Positions 13,012 to 39,000 of a stretch of 64,000 nucleotides of DNA are shown one piece after another. The translations under genes and the position numbers were made by a program. Source of the DNA: Bolinopsis microptera (Eukaryota > Ctenophora > Tentaculata > Lobata > Bolinopsidae). Each line of letters starts with the position of its first letter. The stretch's first letter is position 1. The stretch is from assembly GCF_026151205.1 (NCBI RefSeq), contig NC_087077.1:5356483-5420482 (forward strand), in the 5' to 3' direction. Under the pieces are notes generated by a model. It saw only the letters and a list, made by a program, of their open reading frames with translations. It was not told the origin of the DNA and searched no databases.

Positions 13012-13953
13012 TTAAGTCGACTGGACTTCCCAGACGCAGATTTCGTTATTCGTGTAGCCGGCGTAAAGAGTTTGGCCATCTGAAGACCAAGCGAGGCAAG
13101 TGCAAGCGACGGCACCGTTGTTCGATGTGTTTTCCAATTTCTTCTCATCGACGATCTGTTTTCCTTCGAGATCCCAGATCTTGATTTGAGAGCCGGTGGC
13201 GGCACAGAGCCAGTATCTGTTGGGAGAGAAGGCGAGGGCGTTGATGGCATCACCACAGTCCAAAGTGTAGAGATGTTTGTCTGCGTTGAGATCCCACAGC
13301 ATGGTCTTGGTGTCTTGTCCACCGGAAGCAGCCAGGGAACCGTCAGGGGAGATGGTTACGGTGTTGAGGTGTCCGTTGTGACCGACATGGTTGGTCTTCA
13401 GCTTGCAGTTCTGGAGGTTCCATACCTTGACCATGTTGTCCCAGCCAGCTGAAACAAGAAGTGGGTTCTTCTGGTTAGGACTGAACCTGACACATGATAC
13501 CCATTCACTGTGACAATCTTCTTGGATTGTGTATTTACATTCGGCCAAAGTGTTCCACAGCTTGATGGTCTTGTCTCTGGATCCGGAAACGATCTGCCTG
13601 TTATCAGCGGAGAAGGCGACTGAAAGGATATCTTTCTCGTGACCCCAGAATTGACGAGTAGTTGCTCCCGTGTTGAGATCCCACAGCCTCATGGACTTGT
13701 CCCATGATCCAGACAGAGCGAACTGACCGTCTGAAGAAACAACGACGTCGGAAACGAAGTGAGAATGGCCGGTAAGGGCTCTCTTGGCGTATCCGTAGTT
13801 ATCACTACCACTTTCACCCAACTCCCACAGGATGATTGTGTGATCTCTTGACGACGAAAGGATCATGTTGGGCACTTGAGGAGTGGTTGCGATCTGTGTG
13901 ACCCAGCCATTGTGGCCCTTCAGGCTACCTTTGAGAACTAACTGCTCGGTCAT
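13012..13953 (-). CDS. RACK1: RACK1 (receptor for activated C kinase 1), intronless
   Basis: A 313-residue protein of seven WD40 repeats, beginning [20 protein letters not shown] and ending ICVWEVQST, the normal RACK1 length and layout. Recurrent GH...WD spacing is clear (for example [11 protein letters not shown] ... MRLWDL, and [11 protein letters not shown] ... IKLWNT). RACK1 is a scaffold on the small ribosomal subunit and binds signalling proteins such as protein kinase C. The whole coding region is one exon, whereas vertebrate RACK1 has several introns. A CCCTAG acceptor-like motif lies 2 nt before the ATG. I see no damage, so it is probably the functional gene rather than a processed copy; with no second copy in view, a retrocopy cannot be fully excluded. 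Confidence 0.95.
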
Positions 13954-14474
13954 GTCTAGGGACAGTGATTTATTAAAATAAGAGTTGTGAAGAGAAAAAC
14001 GATATGCAATTTCAGTAAAATCAAACTAGCGCGCGCCGCGCAAAAATATAGGGCGAGAATGATAACAGGAGCCGAGAAAAACCACTACAATATTGTCCGC
14101 GCGTTACGTTTGGTCTTAAAAACGTCTGATTTGCCACGACTTTGGCAACATTTTAGAACCTTCGATCGTAATTCGGATTTAAGGTTAATCACACGAAATA
14201 AATATCACAGTAGATCAACAATACATTCCACATCAATATAGTCGTTTAAATACAACTTTGGATATGAAAATTTATTAAAATTTGTGATTATGATACTGTA
14301 CATATATAATCCACGTAAATTACAAAATAATTTCATGATATTGATATGACGTTCAAAATCGAATACTGTAGAGCTGTTATTCAAATAAGAGTTAGACAAA
14401 CACAAACCCTCAACATCTAGAAAAAAGTGCTTTCCTGGAACATCCAGCTAAAATCTAACTTGTTAAAACCAAGT

Positions 14475-19218: not shown

Positions 19219-20278
19219 TATAACAATAGACAGTTTTTGGGTTTTTCCAAATAGTTTCTGATTATTCTGATTTGCGACAAATGATATTGCACTGTTAGGA
19301 TAAACGACGTTTCAAAGTAACAACTTCTTATTCATGCTGACAAAATTGGTAAATATGTGAGAAAACTGTCTCATAAAATTTCTTAATCAAAAATGGCTAA
19401 ACCGAAACGACAACAAATTGTTCAAATACTCGACTAAAATTAGAATCAAAATCTATATATATACAACACTACTCGATCTGCTATTCAATAAACTTAAAAC
19501 ATCCACTAAACAGCAAGTACGTGATTGTGATCGTGTGATGGAATGACATGTACAGTGATAACAGATGATTTAAGATGTAAGTGATAACAGATGATAAGGT
19601 AAAAGATACAATACATGTGAGATGGTGTATACACAATGTGAGTGAAAATATAGTGAGTGGTTACTGATTGTGAGCGAGATGTGAAAAAACATTAAAACTT
19701 ACTACTGCTAGAAAACTTAAACTGTATGCAATAAAAAGGGAATGAAACTAAAATATCTAAAATTCTTCAGTACTAGCTATGATAAAACGTTTAATAGTAT
19801 CCAGTTCTTCTCTCTTGTTAATTGTAGGGTTCAGATTAATAATAAACATCGCTTCAAAAATCTTTCTTCTGACAGTATTGGGTTCAATTCTTAAAATATC
19901 TACTTCTAAACTGGGATTTAACCCCTCATGACAGCTCGAATAATGTATGGCAAAAGCTTGACTAACATTAGAAGGGGTAGCAGGGTAGGTAGCGTAACGT
20001 AAGTGTTCTCCTACACGAGCATGTACTTTCCTACTGGTTTCTCCAACGTACAGCTGGTCACATAATTTACACTTAATCTTATATACAACATTCTTCACTT
20101 CACAATCTTTATTACAAACTATCAAAGGACAAATTTTACATGAATTAATACTGCACACACGTTTATCATACGGTCTGTTACTACATAAAATATTTCTCAA
20201 TTTCGAAGTAGGTTTAAAGTTTACTTTAATAGGTAAATTGTTCTGCTTTACATAATTTCTAATCTTATTGCTAGTACT
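19219..20278 (-). repeat. 3' pseudo-LTR of the Penelope-like element
   Basis: 1060 bp containing the GIY-YIG-coding end of the ORF and the 3' untranslated region. It is matched by the 1060-bp copy at 28380-29439 with no net length change and very few substitutions seen (for example near 19383/28544 and 19460/28621). Confidence 0.85.
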
Positions 20279-22567: not shown

Positions 22568-23619
22568 GCTGGATTAAATTACTCAGGTGACTAGGCACCT
22601 CATTAAGGAGAGGTTTAAGAATGGTCGTCACTAGCCAACTGAGTCTCTCTGTAGGTGAGTCCACGCAGCTGATGATGGGTCTAACCTTAACCTGCTCAAG
22701 AGGGATCGTCGAGCGGAAGCTCTCCGGAGGGTTCTTGTGGGTCTTGATTTGGACGTACATGACTGGGAGGCTGACATGGTCAGGAACTCTGATCCGTCGC
22801 TTGTAGTCGTCGTCAAGGTTCCGCTGTGATGAGATCTTCTTCCACAGGTTATTCGACTCCTTCACCAGGTTCTCCGTCTTCTTCTTGATGAGCTGTGTGA
22901 GCTGTTGAGAGGTGGGTTCCGCTACTGAGACAGTTTTACCGTTGATTTTTCTCGTGGGAAGCACACGCTGGTACACAGCTGTCTCCTGGAGGTGATTCTC
23001 TGTTAGATGCCGATGTGTGTCCTTAGTTGTCACCACAAACTCACCGCACTTGTCTGATACCGACACGTGTAACGTCCTGTTTGTCAGAAGGGAGCGTAAA
23101 CCATCTTTCTGAAAACGAGTGAGGTTATCCTGTGGGTTGGTGTTAGTCACGAGGTCCTGTACAAAGCGGTTAAACTGTGCCAGTTTGTCCTCTAAAACCG
23201 GGTGAGTGGGGTCAGGTGTACTGGTGAATGGTGAAGGAAAGGGACACAATCTCCTCACTTTGCTGGAACTCGACTCCTCGGTGGGCTCAATCGGGGCACT
23301 AACTTCCGCACTAGTGTCTGAGTTGGCACGTTGAGTGATAGCGTGTTTGTGTCTGATCTTAAACACACACTGAGCGATATCAACGGCAACTTTATCCTTG
23401 AATGACTGGTCAATTCGCGGAGACACGGCGAAGTTAGGTCCGAGAGCTAAAACTGACTTCTGCTGCTCGGAGACACTGTCGATGTTGAGAGTAGTGACTC
23501 TATCGTCAGCAGGTTGAGTAGTGGATGGAGGAGGAGGAGGAGTAGGAGGGTAGTATTTCTCCAACAACCAAGAAAACTTCTTCTGTAAACGGTCCTTATA
23601 ATGCTGCTTAACATAACGC

Positions 23620-23624
23620 TGGTG
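23620..23624. repeat. 5-bp target duplication TGGTG, left
   Basis: TGGTG immediately before the CACAGTG terminus, repeated immediately after the other terminus at 27973-27977. Five-base duplications are the known hallmark of Transib and RAG-family transposition. Confidence 0.92.
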
Positions 23625-23666
23625 CACAGTGCGCCGAGGAGGCGATTTTCTGGAAAAAATCAAGTT
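23625..23666 (+). repeat. Left terminal inverted repeat with RSS-like heptamer
   Basis: CACAGTG, then an 18-bp GC-rich spacer, then CTGGAAAAAATCAAGTT. The first four spacer bases (CGCC) resemble those of the right end (TGCC). The heptamer equals the consensus of V(D)J recombination signals. The 17-bp block is 16/17 identical to that of the right end. Confidence 0.88.
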
Positions 23667-24156
23667 TGTTCCACAACTCTTCATATTTTTCGTCAAAAAC
23701 TACCTTACTAGACTAAAATTAAGCAAGGAATCGTTTAAAGCCATTTCCGAAATCATTGGATACAAGGGTTAAACACAAAACACGATTTTCTAAAATCAAA
23801 ATTTTTCAAAATTTTCAAAATTTTTTTAAATGATTTTGAACACAAGGAAATATGTTTGACAATGTTATATATATGTACGTTCAACACTCAATCTGATGTT
23901 ACGTAATGTGCTGTTCAATTGATGCCAGTGAAATGTATTTCATGATCTGTGCAGTATACTTTTACGAGTTGTTTTTACTTGTCACTTAGCTTTGAAATGT
24001 TTGAGTAAAATTTGAGTAAATTTTTATTGTTTGATTGCATTTCTGGGTTTGAACGTTGAACCTCTCAGTCTAGTTGATATACTAATGCAAATGGAAATCA
24101 TAGTAATCATTGTGTCATCAATCACTGTAATTATTGAAATCATTGTATAGGAAGAA

Positions 24157-26605
24157 ATGGAGTTTACTAACGGGGAAGTCTGGAAGTTACTGAAAAGTTT
24201 AGGATCACCTGTACCTGTAACTCAGCAACTTTTGGAAAGGTGCCCGACTCTGGGATCTTATGATGTAGTCCTGGGAAAAGTACGGAGAGCTATGGGTAAA
24301 CGCCCACATAGAATTGAAAAGATCGTTCAGTGGGAGAAGCAAGTGTTATTTGAGGGTGCAGAATTGGAAGCAGAATTGGAAGCGGAATTGGAAGTTGAAG
24401 AAGCTGCTCCTGTGGAAGAAGCGGTATTTGAGGGAGAATCGGAACCACGTGCTCATGGAGGTTGTAGGAATAGAGCAGGCAGGAGCAAACTCCGATTATC
24501 TGATAAACCTGGAAAGAGGACTGCTCATAGTATTTTGCAACCTAAAATCGATGAGCTATTAGAATTCGCCACTGACCAAGGAGTGACGTACGAGGAGGTT
24601 ATTGAACTACTCGAAGAAAAAAGTAGAAAGAAGAAAAAAGGGCCAGTATATGTTGCTGAGGTTCCTATCAATGAAGCGGTTGGGTTTTACTTCAACCAGG
24701 AACATAGTACTCGGTCTTGGACAGAACTGCGGTTGTTTTTAGGACAATATGGGCTGAAACTCCCCACTAGAAATGCCATAGACCGGAAAAAAAAAGAAAT
24801 GCTTCCTCAAGGTATGAGGAACGAACAAATAAAGAGTGACGTCAACTTTGAATGTCTTGCTGCTGACACTGTCAAGGGTGAATAATATATAATACGTTTT
24901 AGATTTTGTTTTGTTTTGTTAAGGATCGATTTATTGAATTCAAACTTGAACAAAGTATCAAACTTTCGGTACTAAATTATCTGTAACTTAAGTACACTTC
25001 TTCAGGGTTACTAGAATCCACAGGCTACCAGGTTGAGATTGGAGAGAAACTGAATCTGACAGCCAAAGCAGGTATGGATGGGTCAGGCAGCCACAGAGCA
25101 AGACACCAGAGAGTGGATAGGGCGAAATCTCTAGAGGAGAATCCACACCTGGACCCGGATAGTTACAAGAACTATCTTCTTACCTGTTTCTGTCCACTCA
25201 CCCTGACAGCAGTTAAGGATAATGGATTGGAGGTAAACATCTGGGTAAACCCCTCCCCAAACAGCATGTCCTACACCAGACCCCTCTCCCTCATAAGAGC
25301 AGCCGAGAGCAGAGAGGTGATAGAGAAGGAGTTTTCTGACACACTTTCAGAGATTAGTAAGCCCAAGGTTGAATAAACACTTAAAACATTTGCACATTTC
25401 TTTGTATAACCTGACTGATACGCAGTAAATTATTTTAGTTTTCAGTTTGTATTTTGCTCATTCACATAACAACAATAAATTTCATACCATTTCAGACAAT
25501 AAACATCACGTCATCAACCCTACCCCCACCACACATCACATCCCTCACAGTTCACACAACTATGAGTATGATCGATGGCAAAATGGTCGACATACTTCAG
25601 GGGGATTCTGGAGCCCCATGTCATTTTTGTGACAATACTACTGCTGGAATTAACAACCTTATTAGTATCCTGGCAGGATTCAATATCACCAAAAGTTTTG
25701 AGAAGTGTATGGAAACTTGGGAGAAAGTGGTAGTAGGAGAAATCGTATGGAAGGATGAGGCGAGAGCAGGCCAGTGCCATGCACCCCTAGCTGATCTAAA
25801 AGTGTTTGCTGTGCTGCACTGGAGTTTACGGACTTTCGATTGGCTTCTTCAAATCCTGTATAGATTGGTAGCCGGGGTGAGACGCTGGGGTATATCTCAC
25901 AAGCCATCCCAGCCATTTGTTAAAGCTGCCAAACAGCAAGTCATTGACTTTTTGAGGGAGAAGACGGGAATGTTGGTAGACACACCCACTTGCCAAGGAG
26001 GTAACACCAACACTGGACAGTTGGCTGAGCGGTTCATGGCCCCTGAACACCGGGAATTGATCTGCAGCCTCATAGACAATGCCACTGACAGGGAAAATTT
26101 CTCTCTCCTGCTAAGAGACATTAACATCATGCTCAGAATTACCCAGAGCACGAGAGTAGGAGTGGTCTCTACCAAACTGAAGCAACTAGGGATCGACATC
26201 ATGAGCCATGTCAGATCTAAATTTTTGGATCACTTGGGGCAGCCGTGGATTAATGTGAACCCCTCGTTGCATGCGATGTGTGGGCACGCTTGGCAGCTGG
26301 TTGAGGTGCTTAGTGCACCTGTGGCTATGTACAGTGAACAAGCCCAGGAGCACTGGAATAAGTACCTCACCAAGTACAAGAGTGGGCCATGTGCACGGGC
26401 GAGGCAGCACGATGTTAGTGTCAACCTCACTGACATTTTTCAGCGGATGCTGTTAATGACCCATCCTCTCATAGCTTGCAAAAAGCGGAAAGTTGTCTGC
26501 AAGTTATGTAACAAGGAGGGCCATTCAGCATCATCTGTTAAATGGCATGGATATGGGCCTAACAAGTGGGAAGATGCACTATTAGAGAATTATTATTTAC
26601 ATTAA
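24157..26605 (+). CDS. RAG1-like DDE transposase (three exons, 730 residues)
   Basis: Exons 24157-24877, 25006-25367 and 25496-26605 join in frame (introns of 128 bp each, phases 1 and 0, GT..AG). Residues about 107-137 (AGRSKLRLSDKPGKR ... LLEFA) align with the RAG1 nonamer-binding domain start (GRP...). About 190-210 (LPTRNAIDRKKKEMLP) aligns with the region after it. Catalytic residues are D265 (MDGSGSHR, cf. RAG1 D600 in DGMGD), D388 (SMIDGKMV, cf. D708) and E646 (SEQAQEHWNK, cf. E962 in SEGNESGNK). The zinc site is C403/C406 (CHFCD, cf. CTLCD) and H620/H625 with the RAG1 spacing of five. Spacings D-D 123 and D-E 258 are close to RAG1 (108, 254). The N terminus lacks a RING domain. The C-terminal tail has C-x2-C-x3-G-H-x7-H. 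An acceptor-like TATAG lies 6 nt before the ATG. Whether it is Transib proper or RAG1L needs a phylogeny. Confidence 0.93.
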
Positions 26606-27003
26606 TTCTATTACTTTTCACTTTGTTCTAAATATTTTATTATGGTTTGACTTTATTTTGTTTATTACCTTATACCTTAATCTTCGTACTTTATTAGTTC
26701 ATCAAAACAACTATTCCTTGTTTTATTTAAAATGAATGTGGAATTTTAAGTGATAGAAATTCATGAAATTCATGAAAATTCGACGTTTTTGTCAAAATTT
26801 TGAAAATTTTTGTTCGTCGCGTGCCGCATGTCACTATTTCAGCATAAAAATAGCTTTAATTCGACTAAATTATTGCAAAATCATCAGATTTTTTATTCTG
26901 CCAGTGTTCAAATTAAGTTAAAAACTTTGTCTGAAGAGTTAAAGTAGAATTTAATGTAAATCATTGCACAGTGTACAATTATACAATTATACAAGCAACA
27001 ATA

Positions 27004-27686
27004 GAATTTACCTGTATTTTGACAGTCAAAATTTTTGATCGAGGCTGGTACCAACATCGACCCAGATGATCAGCATGTCGCACCGGGGAGGCTTCAAAAT
27101 TATGTTTTATGATTATGAAACCGTTTGGAAAGTCAAACAAACATCATGAGAGAGCCTCCCCATTGTGACATCATAGTCAATTTTGACCATTTGTGGGTGT
27201 GCCCTAGAAAAAAATACACCAAAAAATCGCAAAATCTCTCATTTTCATCACCAAAATTCAGTTTTTTCACAATTTTGTAATTTGGGAAGCTCAAAATAGC
27301 CTCAAAGCTGCCATAGAAGCTAATTTAAAGTGATATAAACGACAAATACATACATTTGTGGAAATAGAGTGGTTGAAAAGAATTTACCTGTATTTTGACA
27401 GTCAAAATTTTTGATCGAGGCTGGTACCAACATCGACCCAGATGATCAGCATGTCGCACCGGGGAGGCTTCAAAATTATGTTTTATGATTATGAAACCGT
27501 TTGGAAAGTCAAAAAAACATCATGAGAGAGCTCCCCCATTGCGACATCATAGTTAATTTCGAACATTTGTGGCAGCGCCCTAGAAAAAATACACCAAAAA
27601 TCGCAAAATATCTAATTTTCCTCGCCAAAAATCAGTTTTTTCACAATTTTGTAATTTCAGTAGCTCAAAATAGCCTCAAAGCTGCC
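27004..27686. repeat. Two direct 308-bp repeats in the 3' region of the RAG1-like transposon
   Basis: 27004-27312 and 27380-27686 are direct copies, both beginning GAATTTACCTGTATTTTGAC and ending CCTCAAAGCTGCC, with scattered substitutions. They lie between the transposase stop and the right terminus. They contain no credible ORF and may have arisen by internal tandem duplication. Confidence 0.85.
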
Positions 27687-27939
27687 TCATTACTATGTAA
27701 ACAGAGCTTGAATAATCAGAATCATGTAAAAGCCTAAAAACGACCATTATTTGTTCCATTTAAATGAACAAAATTTGAGATGCGCTGAAACTAGGAAGTA
27801 AATTAAGTCAAAATGGGCCACTTTGAATTTTCGTAACTCAAAAAGTAAAAAAGATATGCCCATAATTTTTTTAACTTGTGAAAATTTAGTTAATTGTCCA
27901 CCTGATGAAAGCTAAGTTATAGAGATTTTAAAAAGTGCC

Positions 27940-27972
27940 AACTTGATTCTTTCCAGTCATGGGCACACTGTG
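27940..27972 (-). repeat. Right terminal inverted repeat with RSS-like heptamer
   Basis: Read inward on the minus strand: CACAGTG, then only 9 bp (TGCCCATGA), then CTGGAAAGAATCAAGTT. The spacer is exactly 9 bp shorter than on the left end. Confidence 0.88.
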
Positions 27973-27977
27973 TGGTG
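27973..27977. repeat. 5-bp target duplication TGGTG, right
   Basis: Matches 23620-23624. Confidence 0.92.
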
Positions 27978-28379
27978 TTCCTCGCAAATAGTAGCAATAC
28001 TGATGAAAGTAGAGTGGTCCACTTTATGAAATAAACTGTCCTTCAACTGTAATAAATCACGTTTTCTGTCTGCAATAAACTGATACTGATATGATATGTG
28101 CTGTTGCAATGATAATGTTCTTATTCTGTGCTGATAACGTGTTACACTGCCAGAATTCTGCCTCATCGGAAACAATGATGACTGATTAAACGTAGTACTG
28201 TTCAACATAAATACAGGAAAAACTTGCTGTCGTTTACAGCGTTTGAAAAAATTCAACTTCTGTTCTGAAATTTTGAGTTTTTCTGCTGTAGCAATGAAAG
28301 TTTTGGCAGTTCCAAAGTTCTCCCGAGAAAGAGTAAGGTTCCAAAGATTACGGACTGGAACATTATTTATTAGTCGCAT
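27973..28379 (-). pseudogene. Penelope ORF, N-terminal part
   Basis: About 136 codons starting MRLINNVPVRNLWNLTLS. They include FFKRCKRQQVFPVFML, a pattern typical of the N-terminal region of Penelope polymerases. The frame breaks at the RAG1-like transposon end. Together with the two downstream pieces (407 + 1069 + 1350 nt, each duplication counted once) it totals 2826 nt, that is 942 codons including the stop, divisible by three. Confidence 0.8.
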
Positions 28380-29439
28380 TATAACAATAGACAGTTTTTG
28401 GGTTTTTCCAAATAGTTTCTGATTATTCTGATTTGCGACAAATGATATTGCACTGTTAGGATAAACGACGTTTCAAAGTAACAACTTCTTATTCATGCTG
28501 ACAAAATTGGTAAATATGTGAGAAAACTGTCTCATAAAATTTATTAATCAAAAATGGCTAAACCGAAACGACAACAAATTGTTCAAATACTCGACTAAAA
28601 TTAGAATCAAAATCTATATGTATACAACACTACTCGATCTGCTATTCAATAAACTTAAAACATCCACTAAACAGCAAGTACGTGATTGTGATCGTGTGAT
28701 GGAATGACATGTACAGTGATAACAGATGATTTAAGATGTAAGTGATAACAGATGATAAGGTAAAAGATACAATACATGTGAGATGGTGTATACACAATGT
28801 GAGTGAAAATATAGTGAGTGGTTACTGATTGTGAGCGAGATGTGAAAAAACATTAAAACTTACTACTGCTAGAAAACTTAAACTGTATGCAATAAAAAGG
28901 GAATGAAACTAAAATATCTAAAATTCTTCAGTACTAGCTATGATAAAACGTTTAATAGTATCCAGTTCTTCTCTCTTGTTAATTGTAGGGTTCAGATTAA
29001 TAATAAACATCGCTTCAAAAATCTTTCTTCTGACAGTATTGGGTTCAATTCTTAAAATATCTACTTCTAAACTGGGATTTAACCCCTCATGACAGCTCGA
29101 ATAATGTATGGCAAAAGCTTGACTAACATTAGAAGGGGTAGCAGGGTAGGTAGCGTAACGTAAGTGTTCTCCTACACGAGCATGTACTTTCCTACTGGTT
29201 TCTCCAACGTACAGCTGGTCACATAATTTACACTTAATCTTATATACAACATTCTTCACTTCACAATCTTTATTACAAACTATCAAAGGACAAATTTTAC
29301 ATGAATTAATACTGCACACACGTTTATCATACGGTCTGTTACTACATAAAATATTTCTCAATTTCGAAGTAGGTTTAAAGTTTACTTTAATAGGTAAATT
29401 GTTCTGCTTTACATAATTTCTAATCTTATTGCTAGTACT
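28380..29439 (-). repeat. 5' pseudo-LTR: truncated tandem copy of the Penelope-like element
   Basis: 1060 bp matching 19219-20278. It contains a 5'-truncated GIY-YIG domain (DQLYVGETSRKVHARVGEH) and the 3' untranslated region. It abuts the start codon of the full copy directly, which is how Penelope pseudo-LTRs are placed. Confidence 0.85.
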
Positions 29440-36095: not shown

Positions 36096-39000
36096 CTAAT
36101 TCTCCTTGCATCTGTTCATCATCATCCTGATAAAGTCTGATCTGGTCAGTCGGCCCTCTCCCCGTCTGTCTCCTCGTTTCATGAGATCGTCCAGACCCTC
36201 CTCTGATACAGGGTGGGCCAGGCTAAGCATCACCTGCCTCAAAACGTCCTGAAAATAACGGCAAATCAGACTCAACATTACTTGCCTCAAAACGTCCTGA
36301 AAATAACGGCAAATCAGACTCAACATCACTTGCCTCAAAACGTCCTGAAAATAACGGTAAATCAGACTCAGCATCACTTCCCTCAAAACGTCCTGAAAAT
36401 AACGGCAAATCAGACTCAGCATCACTTGCCTCAAAACGTCCTGAAAATAACGGCAAATCAGACTCAGCATCACTTGCCTCAAAACGTCCTGAAAATAACG
36501 GTAAATCAGACACCATCACTTGCCTCAAAACGTCCTGAAAATAACGGCAAATCAGACTCAGCATCACTTGCCTCAAAACGTCCTGAAAATAACGGTAAAT
36601 CAGACTCAGCATCACTTGCCTCAAAACGTCCTGAAAATAACGGTAAATCAGACTCAGCATCACTTCCCTCAAAACGTCCTGAAAATAACGGTAAATCAGA
36701 CTCAGCATCACTTGCCTCAAAACGTCCTGAAAATAACGGGAAATCAGACTCAGCATCACTTGCCTCAAAACGTCCTGAAAATAACGGCAAATCAAAACTA
36801 GTTACTGTTTTGTGTTTTGTAGTATTAATATTATACGGTCAATGTTATTAATATTATAAGATAAGATATTGTAAGATATAGAAAGACATAGAATGTGGTT
36901 ATGCAATCATAAGCTATAAGTATAGAAAGAAAAAAAAGCTACACTCAAGGCTTTCACAAAGTTTCAGTTGAATCGTCCTAGATAAAATATAAAGACACCT
37001 TATATTAAGTTATTGAATGGTGACGAGTTATAAATAAAAGCGCATACCCTAGTGATAAAGCCACTATGGCCTTTGTCAAAGATGCGGAAGATATCTTCAA
37101 GTTGAGACTCTGGGGTAATAAGTGGATTCTGCTGAAGACTCATCATTCTGATAAACTCGCATATGTCAATGATACCGTCATTATTAATATCAACTTTGGA
37201 TACCATTACCTGTGGAAGGATGATGTTGAAATTATGGTAAAATTATGGTAAAATTATGGTGAAATAATAGATTATGGTGAAATAATAAAGCGACTTCCAT
37301 TCAAATTGCTATACTTGTACTTTTGTTGTTTTACGAATAAAAGTTCAGATCTAAAGTGCTACCTCTACTTCTTCGGGGCTTGGTTTCAGACCAATGCTGT
37401 CTAATACGTCTGGAAGTTCGTCAACTGTGATGATACCTATATAAATAGATAAAATAAGCTTAGGTTAAATGAATTAAGCCTAAAACTGAACGTAGCAATT
37501 TGCAATAGGTTGCAACCTGGATGTGATCATCAAAAATTGTATTGTTTTATAAGCATTATTCTGTGCTTTTCGGTGAAAGTGCATTATATCGAATATCGAT
37601 ACTATCAACTTATTTGTTACTGGGCGGCGTTCATCCTGTCATTCCGCCGAATCTCTATTCGGTTGTTTATGAACATGATAACCTGGGGTCCCCAGATAAC
37701 TTATTTGTGGTATTTGTGGTATTTGTGGTATTTGTGGTATTTGTGGTATTTGTGGTATTTGTGGTATTTGTGGTATTTGTGGTATAGTATGAATATCTAT
37801 CAGTATCTGTTTAACATCCCGCCAGCTTACCATCTCCATTTTGATCGAAGTCTTTGAATGCTTGTTCGTACTCCTGGATCTCGTGCCAATCCAGACTGAC
37901 GGGTATTGGCAACGGTCTCTCTCCATTGTTATCTGAAATTAATCACAATCAATAAATCAAGTAAGGTTAAAGATATTGGGTTCCGTCTAGACGACCAGAG
38001 GCAAATACGCGGATCAGAATTAACTAGATCTCTGTGAGCCATTGTGGACATGGTTAGCATGGTCACAGATCACGATTATTATACTAATTTGATACTGGGA
38101 TTAGTGTCATCTTCCATAATCATGAAACCAACGACAAACCACAGGATCTGGTAGTGGTAAACATTTCAGATAGAAATACCGTTTCTATGACCAAGATTAA
38201 AAGCTCTGCTTGATAAAAGTAATTGTATCAAGTAAAACCGGATTAAACTGCATTAAATTCAAACGGAGCAAACTTACAAATTTTAAGCCTCACAAGAGAT
38301 TTATAAAGTCCGCGAGTTTCGCACAAATGATACCGACATTCAGAATAATTTCTGGGTGATCGACTGCATGATAAGCCCATTTATATTTATCAGAAATAAA
38401 AGAAGCAAACGGAATGGTATAATTTTGTGAATACGCAAGGTTCACACATTGGATCCATTTATTAGGCTAAGATCAGGAGACCCGTGTACCAGGGGTGTAG
38501 GAATGATTTTCTTCATGGGGGAGGGGGGGGGGGGGGGCAATTCTAAATTTTTTGGAGCTTCGCGCCACAGCCTGGATTTGTTGGCGGACATGCAACAGAT
38601 CACGATTATTATACTAATTTGAGACTGGGATTAGTGTCATCTTCCATAATCATGAAACCAACTTCAAAACACAGGATCTGGTAGTGGTAAACATTTCAAA
38701 TAAAAAATACCGTTTCTTTGACCAAGATTAAAAGCTCTGCTTGATAAAAGTAATTGTATCAAGTAAAACCGGATTAAACTGCATTAAATTCAAACGGAGC
38801 AAACTTACAAATTTTTAGCCTCACAAGAGATTTATAAAGTCCGCGAGTTTTTCACAGCCTGGATTTGTTGGCGGACATGCAACAGATCACGATTATTATA
38901 CTAATATGAGACTGGGATTAGTCCTGTCATCTTAAACCATATAACTAATAACGTAAATCATGAAACCAACGACAAACCACAAGATTTGCAGTAGTGGTAA

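Follow-up and report, generated by a model that had tools for sequence, protein, structure and literature searches.

The stretch of DNA analyzed here (the window) comprises 64,000 nucleotides of contig NC_087077.1 of the ctenophore Bolinopsis microptera (assembly GCF_026151205.1, positions 5,356,483 to 5,420,482 of the forward strand). At window positions 23625 to 27972, on the plus strand, it carries a 4348-bp Transib-type transposon with a gene related to RAG1, the antibody-gene-cutting enzyme that evolved from this transposon family. The element begins with the heptamer CACAGTG (23625 to 23631, plus strand) and ends with CACTGTG (27966 to 27972; CACAGTG on the minus strand), and direct reading places a copy of TGGTG on either side, at 23620 to 23624 and 27973 to 27977. 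An initial annotation had given these coordinates, repeats, and termini and had described a recent, single-gene RAG1-related transposon with an intact transposase gene; exact empty sites, an open frame, and profile matches, presented below, bear this description out. We conclude with high confidence that the element is a complete DNA transposon of the cut-and-paste kind and a member of the Transib superfamily, apparently of Subgroup I type, with a single RAG1-like transposase gene and no RAG2 gene seen.

The boundaries were examined by searching the 264.65-Mb host assembly (232 contigs) for further copies and for empty sites. The two flanks, window positions 23400 to 23624 and 27978 to 28200, are contiguous without a gap at four paralogous empty sites, each with one TGGTG and with junctions at C11:6072921|6072922, C9:10370290|10370291, C8:12480592|12480593 (minus strand), and C4:16004256|16004257. 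Over 1.34 to 1.61 kb across the junction, the joined flanks are 98.7 to 99.6% identical to these sites. A fifth flank match, on C5, spans the junction by 11 bp only, and a sixth, on C11, spans it at 94.8% identity with several gaps. Because TGGTG is single at the empty sites in four paralogues, both element boundaries are exact, and chance ends are ruled out. The 5-bp target-site duplication that characterizes the Transib superfamily is present as TGGTG twice in the window and once per empty site (n = 4). The last 113 bp of the element match five places, the window included, all reaching the final base. The first 136 bp match three places; the two outside the window begin at bases 17 and 20, so that the left boundary is unconfirmed by those copies. 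Other copies with differing limits would have spoken against the proposed ends; we encountered no such contradiction.

The sequence interrupted by the transposon is itself repetitive. A minus-strand open frame is unbroken once the flanks are joined, and another frame of the target repeat has weak matches to reverse transcriptase and GIY-YIG profiles, under the Pfam cut-offs; on the strength of these matches, a Penelope-like retroelement is the probable target. The transposon inserted after this multicopy sequence had spread. Two 1060-bp direct copies, at 19219 to 20278 and 28380 to 29439, are 99.8% identical and bracket the interrupted retroelement. Penelope-like elements carry such flanking repeats.

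The transposase gene is predicted to consist of three plus-strand exons, at 24157 to 24877, 25006 to 25367, and 25496 to 26605, which are separated by GT..AG introns and join to encode an uninterrupted protein of 730 residues, as had been proposed. Exon 1 would encode the N terminus and a nonamer-binding-domain (NBD)-like segment with GRS at residue 108; exon 2, the first catalytic aspartate, D265; and exon 3, D388, a CxxC motif at 403 to 406, an alpha11-12-like region, an HxxxxH motif at 620 to 625, E646, a CTT1-like CxxCxxxGHx7H motif at 696 to 712, and the stop codon. Relatives read on in frame over the first splice join ('DTVKGLL...'), which supports that join. Conservation was counted in a 34-sequence alignment, using only the rows that reach each column: D265 is kept in 33/34, D388 in 34/34, and E646 in 26/27, and among the zinc ligands C403 and C406 are kept in 34/34 and H620 and H625 in 27/27. 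Profile alignment sets the three catalytic residues and the zinc motifs opposite the active-site segments of RAG1 and HzTransib; we take their RAG1 counterparts to be D600, D708, and E962. The catalytic and zinc-binding residues and the GRS named in the initial annotation are all present, the catalytic ones at the positions it gave. No RAG2-like gene was recognized: the longest nontransposase frame lying wholly inside the element encodes 80 residues, these frames not having been scanned with a RAG2 profile.

From about 5.8 billion proteins, the 7993 sharing the most words with the transposase were scored, yielding 33 relatives, the best two of which are 55% and 57% identical. The 57%-identical relative (P0002) is named from the krill Meganyctiphanes norvegica, which makes spread between distant animals possible. 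Viral and prokaryotic collections gave 163 and 181 pattern-matching stretches, respectively, and no relatives among them. When the 730-residue sequence alone was compared with the PDB, the sole match under an E value of 1 was HzTransib (3.1e-13). Similarity to RAG1 or Transib profiles, which the initial annotation had anticipated, failed for Pfam RAG1 alone (E value of 0.1, under the cut-off) but held for HzTransib and for a family profile that matches RAG1. Pfam RAG1 is reached at an E value of ≤0.001 by 7 of the 34 family members, the window protein not among them. Against structures, the 34-sequence family profile matched HzTransib at 1.2e-55, the RAG1L protein of ProtoRAG at 1.1e-28, and vertebrate RAG1 at 2e-22 and weaker. 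A Transib/RAG1 core with the D, D, and E residues and the zinc ligands, as expected of the superfamily, is present.

Profile-profile comparison gave 2.4e-57 over 453 columns against an HzTransib-like set and 3.4e-34 over 572 columns against a RAG1/RAG1L set. The latter covers more of the protein, since it alone aligns with the NBD-like segment, the alpha11-12-like region, and the zinc-knuckle tail; with the HzTransib-like set, the alpha11-12 region is largely gapped and neither an NBD-like segment nor the tail is aligned. The alpha11-12-like region lies between CxxC and the second zinc half and, as judged from sequence only, aligns with ProtoRAG and RAG1 and is gapped in HzTransib.

These shared regions raise the alternative that the element is a RAGL transposon of the ProtoRAG type that no longer carries a RAG2L gene and not a Transib, and it has been proposed by Martin et al. 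(2020) that Transib itself was possibly born by RAG2L loss (available text of PMC7204232). We built a tree of 62 rows, made up of the element, 25 of the 33 relatives described above, 16 HzTransib hits taken from 120 listed among the 1016 found, and 20 of 53 RAG1L hits; P0020, P0022, and P0027 to P0032 (8 of the 33 relatives, mostly fragments) had been excluded beforehand. The unrooted tree separates RAG1/RAG1L, HzTransib-like proteins, and a group formed by the element and 24 of the 25 relatives, each with support of 100/100; P0033 falls outside all three, and the element is sister to P0001 plus P0002 (99/98). The tree program gave a long-branch warning, and a similar one for a quick tree, also unrooted, from which P0033, P0201, and P0206 were removed; this tree recovers the same groups, with an SH-aLRT value of 100 for RAG1/RAG1L. 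Since the element lies outside the RAG1/RAG1L clade and under the Pfam RAG1 cut-off, and the profile scores favor Transib, RAG1L membership was rejected, and we regard an origin as a RAGL transposon minus its RAG2L gene as highly improbable. The kinship with RAG1 described in the initial annotation stands, with the correction that the element lies in a separate Transib-type clade and not on the RAG1/RAG1L branch.

Tao et al. (2022) defined Subgroup I Transibs on a tree, with asymmetric terminal inverted repeats (TIRs), an alpha11-12 region, and CTT1 (PMC9435367). They also report six ctenophore proteins that are Transib-like; examples from Mnemiopsis, Pleurobrachia, and Hydra are named in a legend, and the main text does not state the subgroup of each one (PMC9435367). 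In our trees of database hits to the element, HzTransib, and RAG1L, the element's clade is a third group besides RAG1/RAG1L and the HzTransib-like proteins. Compared by description only, the element is like Subgroup I Transibs in its single RAG1-like gene, NBD-like segment, alpha11-12-like region, CTT1-like tail, and asymmetric ends, features that appear to fit this subgroup. It shares with HzTransib and HzTransib-like (Subgroup II-type) transposons the catalytic core, the lack of RAG2, CAC ends, and a 5-bp duplication, but belongs to a separate clade, and its alpha11-12 region and CTT1-like tail fail to align with theirs. To RAGL transposons (ProtoRAG and AanRAGL) and vertebrate RAG1 with its recombination signal sequence (RSS) it is linked by a homologous core, NBD, alpha11-12 region, and tail and by asymmetric ends; in contrast to the element, those systems encode RAG2 or RAG2L, and RAG1/RAG1L form their own clade. 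The tail departs from the Subgroup I pattern, reading Cx2Cx3GHx7H in the element and in P0001 to P0007 versus Cx2Cx3GHx4C (the CTT* motif; available text of PMC7204232), so that the last CTT1 cysteine is replaced by valine and a histidine follows 3 residues on. Among the rows that reach this column, nine keep cysteine. With such differing tails, and with no knuckle in five rows, CTT1 is not uniform across the aligned members of the element's clade.

The two ends of the element are not mirror images of each other. Inside the heptamers lies an inverted repeat with 16 of 17 bp identical, whose left copy is placed 9 bp deeper than its right copy; 16 identities were attained in none of 5000 shuffles of the single letters inside the heptamers. 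Each end has an A-rich block, GAAAAAATC at 23653 to 23661 (plus strand), 21 bp inside the left heptamer, and GAAAGAATC at 27945 to 27953 (minus strand), 12 bp inside the right one. When the spacer is counted from the heptamer up to the G of GAA, the window element has spacers of 21 bp (left) and 12 bp (right), and its nonautonomous relative L009 has spacers of 23 and 13 bp, the asymmetry of TIRs that is described for Subgroup I. Three further right ends (L010, L011, and L012) have 12-bp spacers, and one further left end (L016), whose start was set by eye, has a 25-bp spacer; L012 and L015 contribute no left end to the count, theirs being truncated or too diverged. The heptamer is CACAGTG at four of five right ends and CACATTG at the fifth, and the left ends carry CACAGTG, CACAGTT, and CACAGCA. 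All eight ends read start with CAC, as in the Transib superfamily. The exact end pattern occurs four times in the genome, always in this family (both window ends and the right ends of L010 and L011), and the reversed control pattern does not occur. The spacer asymmetry, the stronger point, and the internal inverted repeat had both been missed by the initial annotation.

The RSS consensus consists of CACAGTG, a 12- or 23-bp spacer, and ACAAAAACC (available text of PMC8289069), and the 12/21 layout, 13/23 in the relative, is close to the 12/23 rule. The initial annotation had singled out the heptamer as being of evolutionary interest; the consensus is indeed present at both ends, but RSS-like heptamers and 12/23 asymmetry were already known in some Transibs. 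Insect elements (Drosophila Transib5 and Anopheles Transib2, N1, N2, and N3) have an RSS-like heptamer and spacers of 12/23 ± 1 bp, and a 2021 review lists Transibs of insects whose ends show a 12/23 asymmetry and motifs identical to the RSS (both from the available text of PMC8355894); they belong to another host group and are likened to the element by published description only. AanRAGL has spacers of 4 and 13 bp, likewise 9 bp apart (PMC9435367), and ProtoRAG has the heptamer CACTATG and spacers of 27 and 31 bp (available text of PMC8289069).

The unequal spacers might also be incidental and without function. Unlike those of the element, the ends of most Transib families, among them HzTransib, are symmetric (available text of PMC8289069), and the left spacer varies from 21 to 25 bp within its family. 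Against this, five right ends, four of them independent, have spacers of 12 to 13 bp versus 21 to 25 bp at three left ends, all Subgroup I Transibs are reported to have asymmetric ends (PMC9435367), and ProtoRAG is more efficient with unlike ends (available text of PMC8289069). We consider an asymmetry without a role somewhat doubtful and favor ends that differ for a reason.

Other matching pieces of the genome are 77 to 97% identical to the element (97% over 33 bp only). Thirteen loci were fetched, seven of which encode recognizable pieces of transposase. In the four longer coding copies, differences from the window element at first, second, and third codon positions number 18/15/63 (L010), 11/6/39 (L011), 18/19/66 (L013), and 20/16/54 (L014) and are mostly at third positions, a pattern suggestive of selection on the transposase during the divergence of the lineages. 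L010 and L011 share a flank, marking one insertion that was duplicated, and L013 and L014 are likewise a duplicate pair, so that these numbers amount to two comparisons. The stretch 6794 to 6934 of L010 resembles its right flank and was considered as the empty site of that insertion; it was dropped, the following sequence matching nothing else fetched. L009 (5744 to 7632, on C3) is a complete nonautonomous relative of 1889 bp, with flanks GGACG and TGACG that are alike at four of five positions. The 3' noncoding part of the window element contains an internal direct repeat, with units at 27000 to 27213 and 27376 to 27589 (plus strand) that are 95% identical; L009 has about three copies of this repeat.

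Several observations weigh against reading the element as a functional Subgroup I transposon with purposefully unlike ends. The known left ends number three (spacers of 21, 23, and 25 bp), two of them carry degenerate heptamers (CACAGTT and CACAGCA), and the start of L016 was chosen by eye; the A-rich blocks agree with the RSS nonamer ACAAAAACC at only 6/9 and 5/9 places, again by eye. Both splice joins are predictions, the second lying in a variable stretch. The valine and displaced histidine alter the final ligand of the CTT1 motif in the element's own protein, and the zinc knuckle is missing in five relatives from the same clade (P0021 and P0023 to P0026). Stops interrupt the coding parts of all four longer copies, and the DNA search of the host genome found no near-identical second copy. 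The introns (24878 to 25005 and 25368 to 25495) have changed less, with 9 to 15 differences in 161 to 246 bp, than third positions, with 39 to 66 in 265 to 476, so that selection cannot be read cleanly from the codon bias. This lower divergence of introns relative to L010, L011, L013, and L014 is unexpected if introns change freely.

The lack of a near-identical sister would also be expected if the gene were intact in an immobile copy, either kept as a host gene or merely not yet decayed; a domesticated gene would likewise yield the codon-position bias. However, the ends and target duplications are flawless on both sides, and a host gene needs no intact ends; the multicopy target had already spread when the element inserted; and autonomous Transibs usually have few copies (available text of PMC4411706). 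We therefore judge an immobile copy to be unlikely. For a mobile transposon, the donor copy may have been lost by cut-and-paste, may be unassembled, or may reside in another genome, and we infer from the sequence that the element could be active at present.

Elsewhere in the window, a 48-bp unit is repeated in 12 tandem copies at 36219 to 36794 and is open for at least 190 residues on both strands, and a long minus-strand frame at 13012 to 14025 resembles, by eye, an intact RACK1-type WD-repeat gene. An Rfam scan of the window gave no matches.

Transib and RAG biochemistry suggest how such an element would move. The transposase would pair one 12-type end with one 21/23-type end, nick at the heptamer border, form hairpins on the flanking DNA, and insert the freed 3' ends into the target at positions staggered by 5 bp. 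The pairing of unlike ends would be steered by the A-rich blocks, which lie about one helical turn deeper at one end. The fullest version of this model, in which a living, mobile, RAG2-free ctenophore transposon enforces 12/23-like pairing on exact V(D)J heptamer ends through its single transposase, is a long shot at present.

Elements of this kind were already known, as were RSS-like heptamers and 12/23 asymmetry in some Transibs; no publication about this element was found in the open-license literature, by title or start of abstract. The element contributes a complete copy whose empty sites are exact, with the consensus heptamer on either side, spacers of 12/21 (13/23 in the relative), and a CTT1 variant. 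The exact empty sites provide a clean picture of an insertion. The element bears on the origin of the V(D)J 12/23 pairing rule and on whether RAG2 is needed for it, and its intact transposase gene, together with a natural pair of unlike ends carrying the consensus RSS heptamer, makes the pairing question directly testable. If pairing without RAG2 proved true, the spacer rule would work in its absence and would predate the RAG locus.

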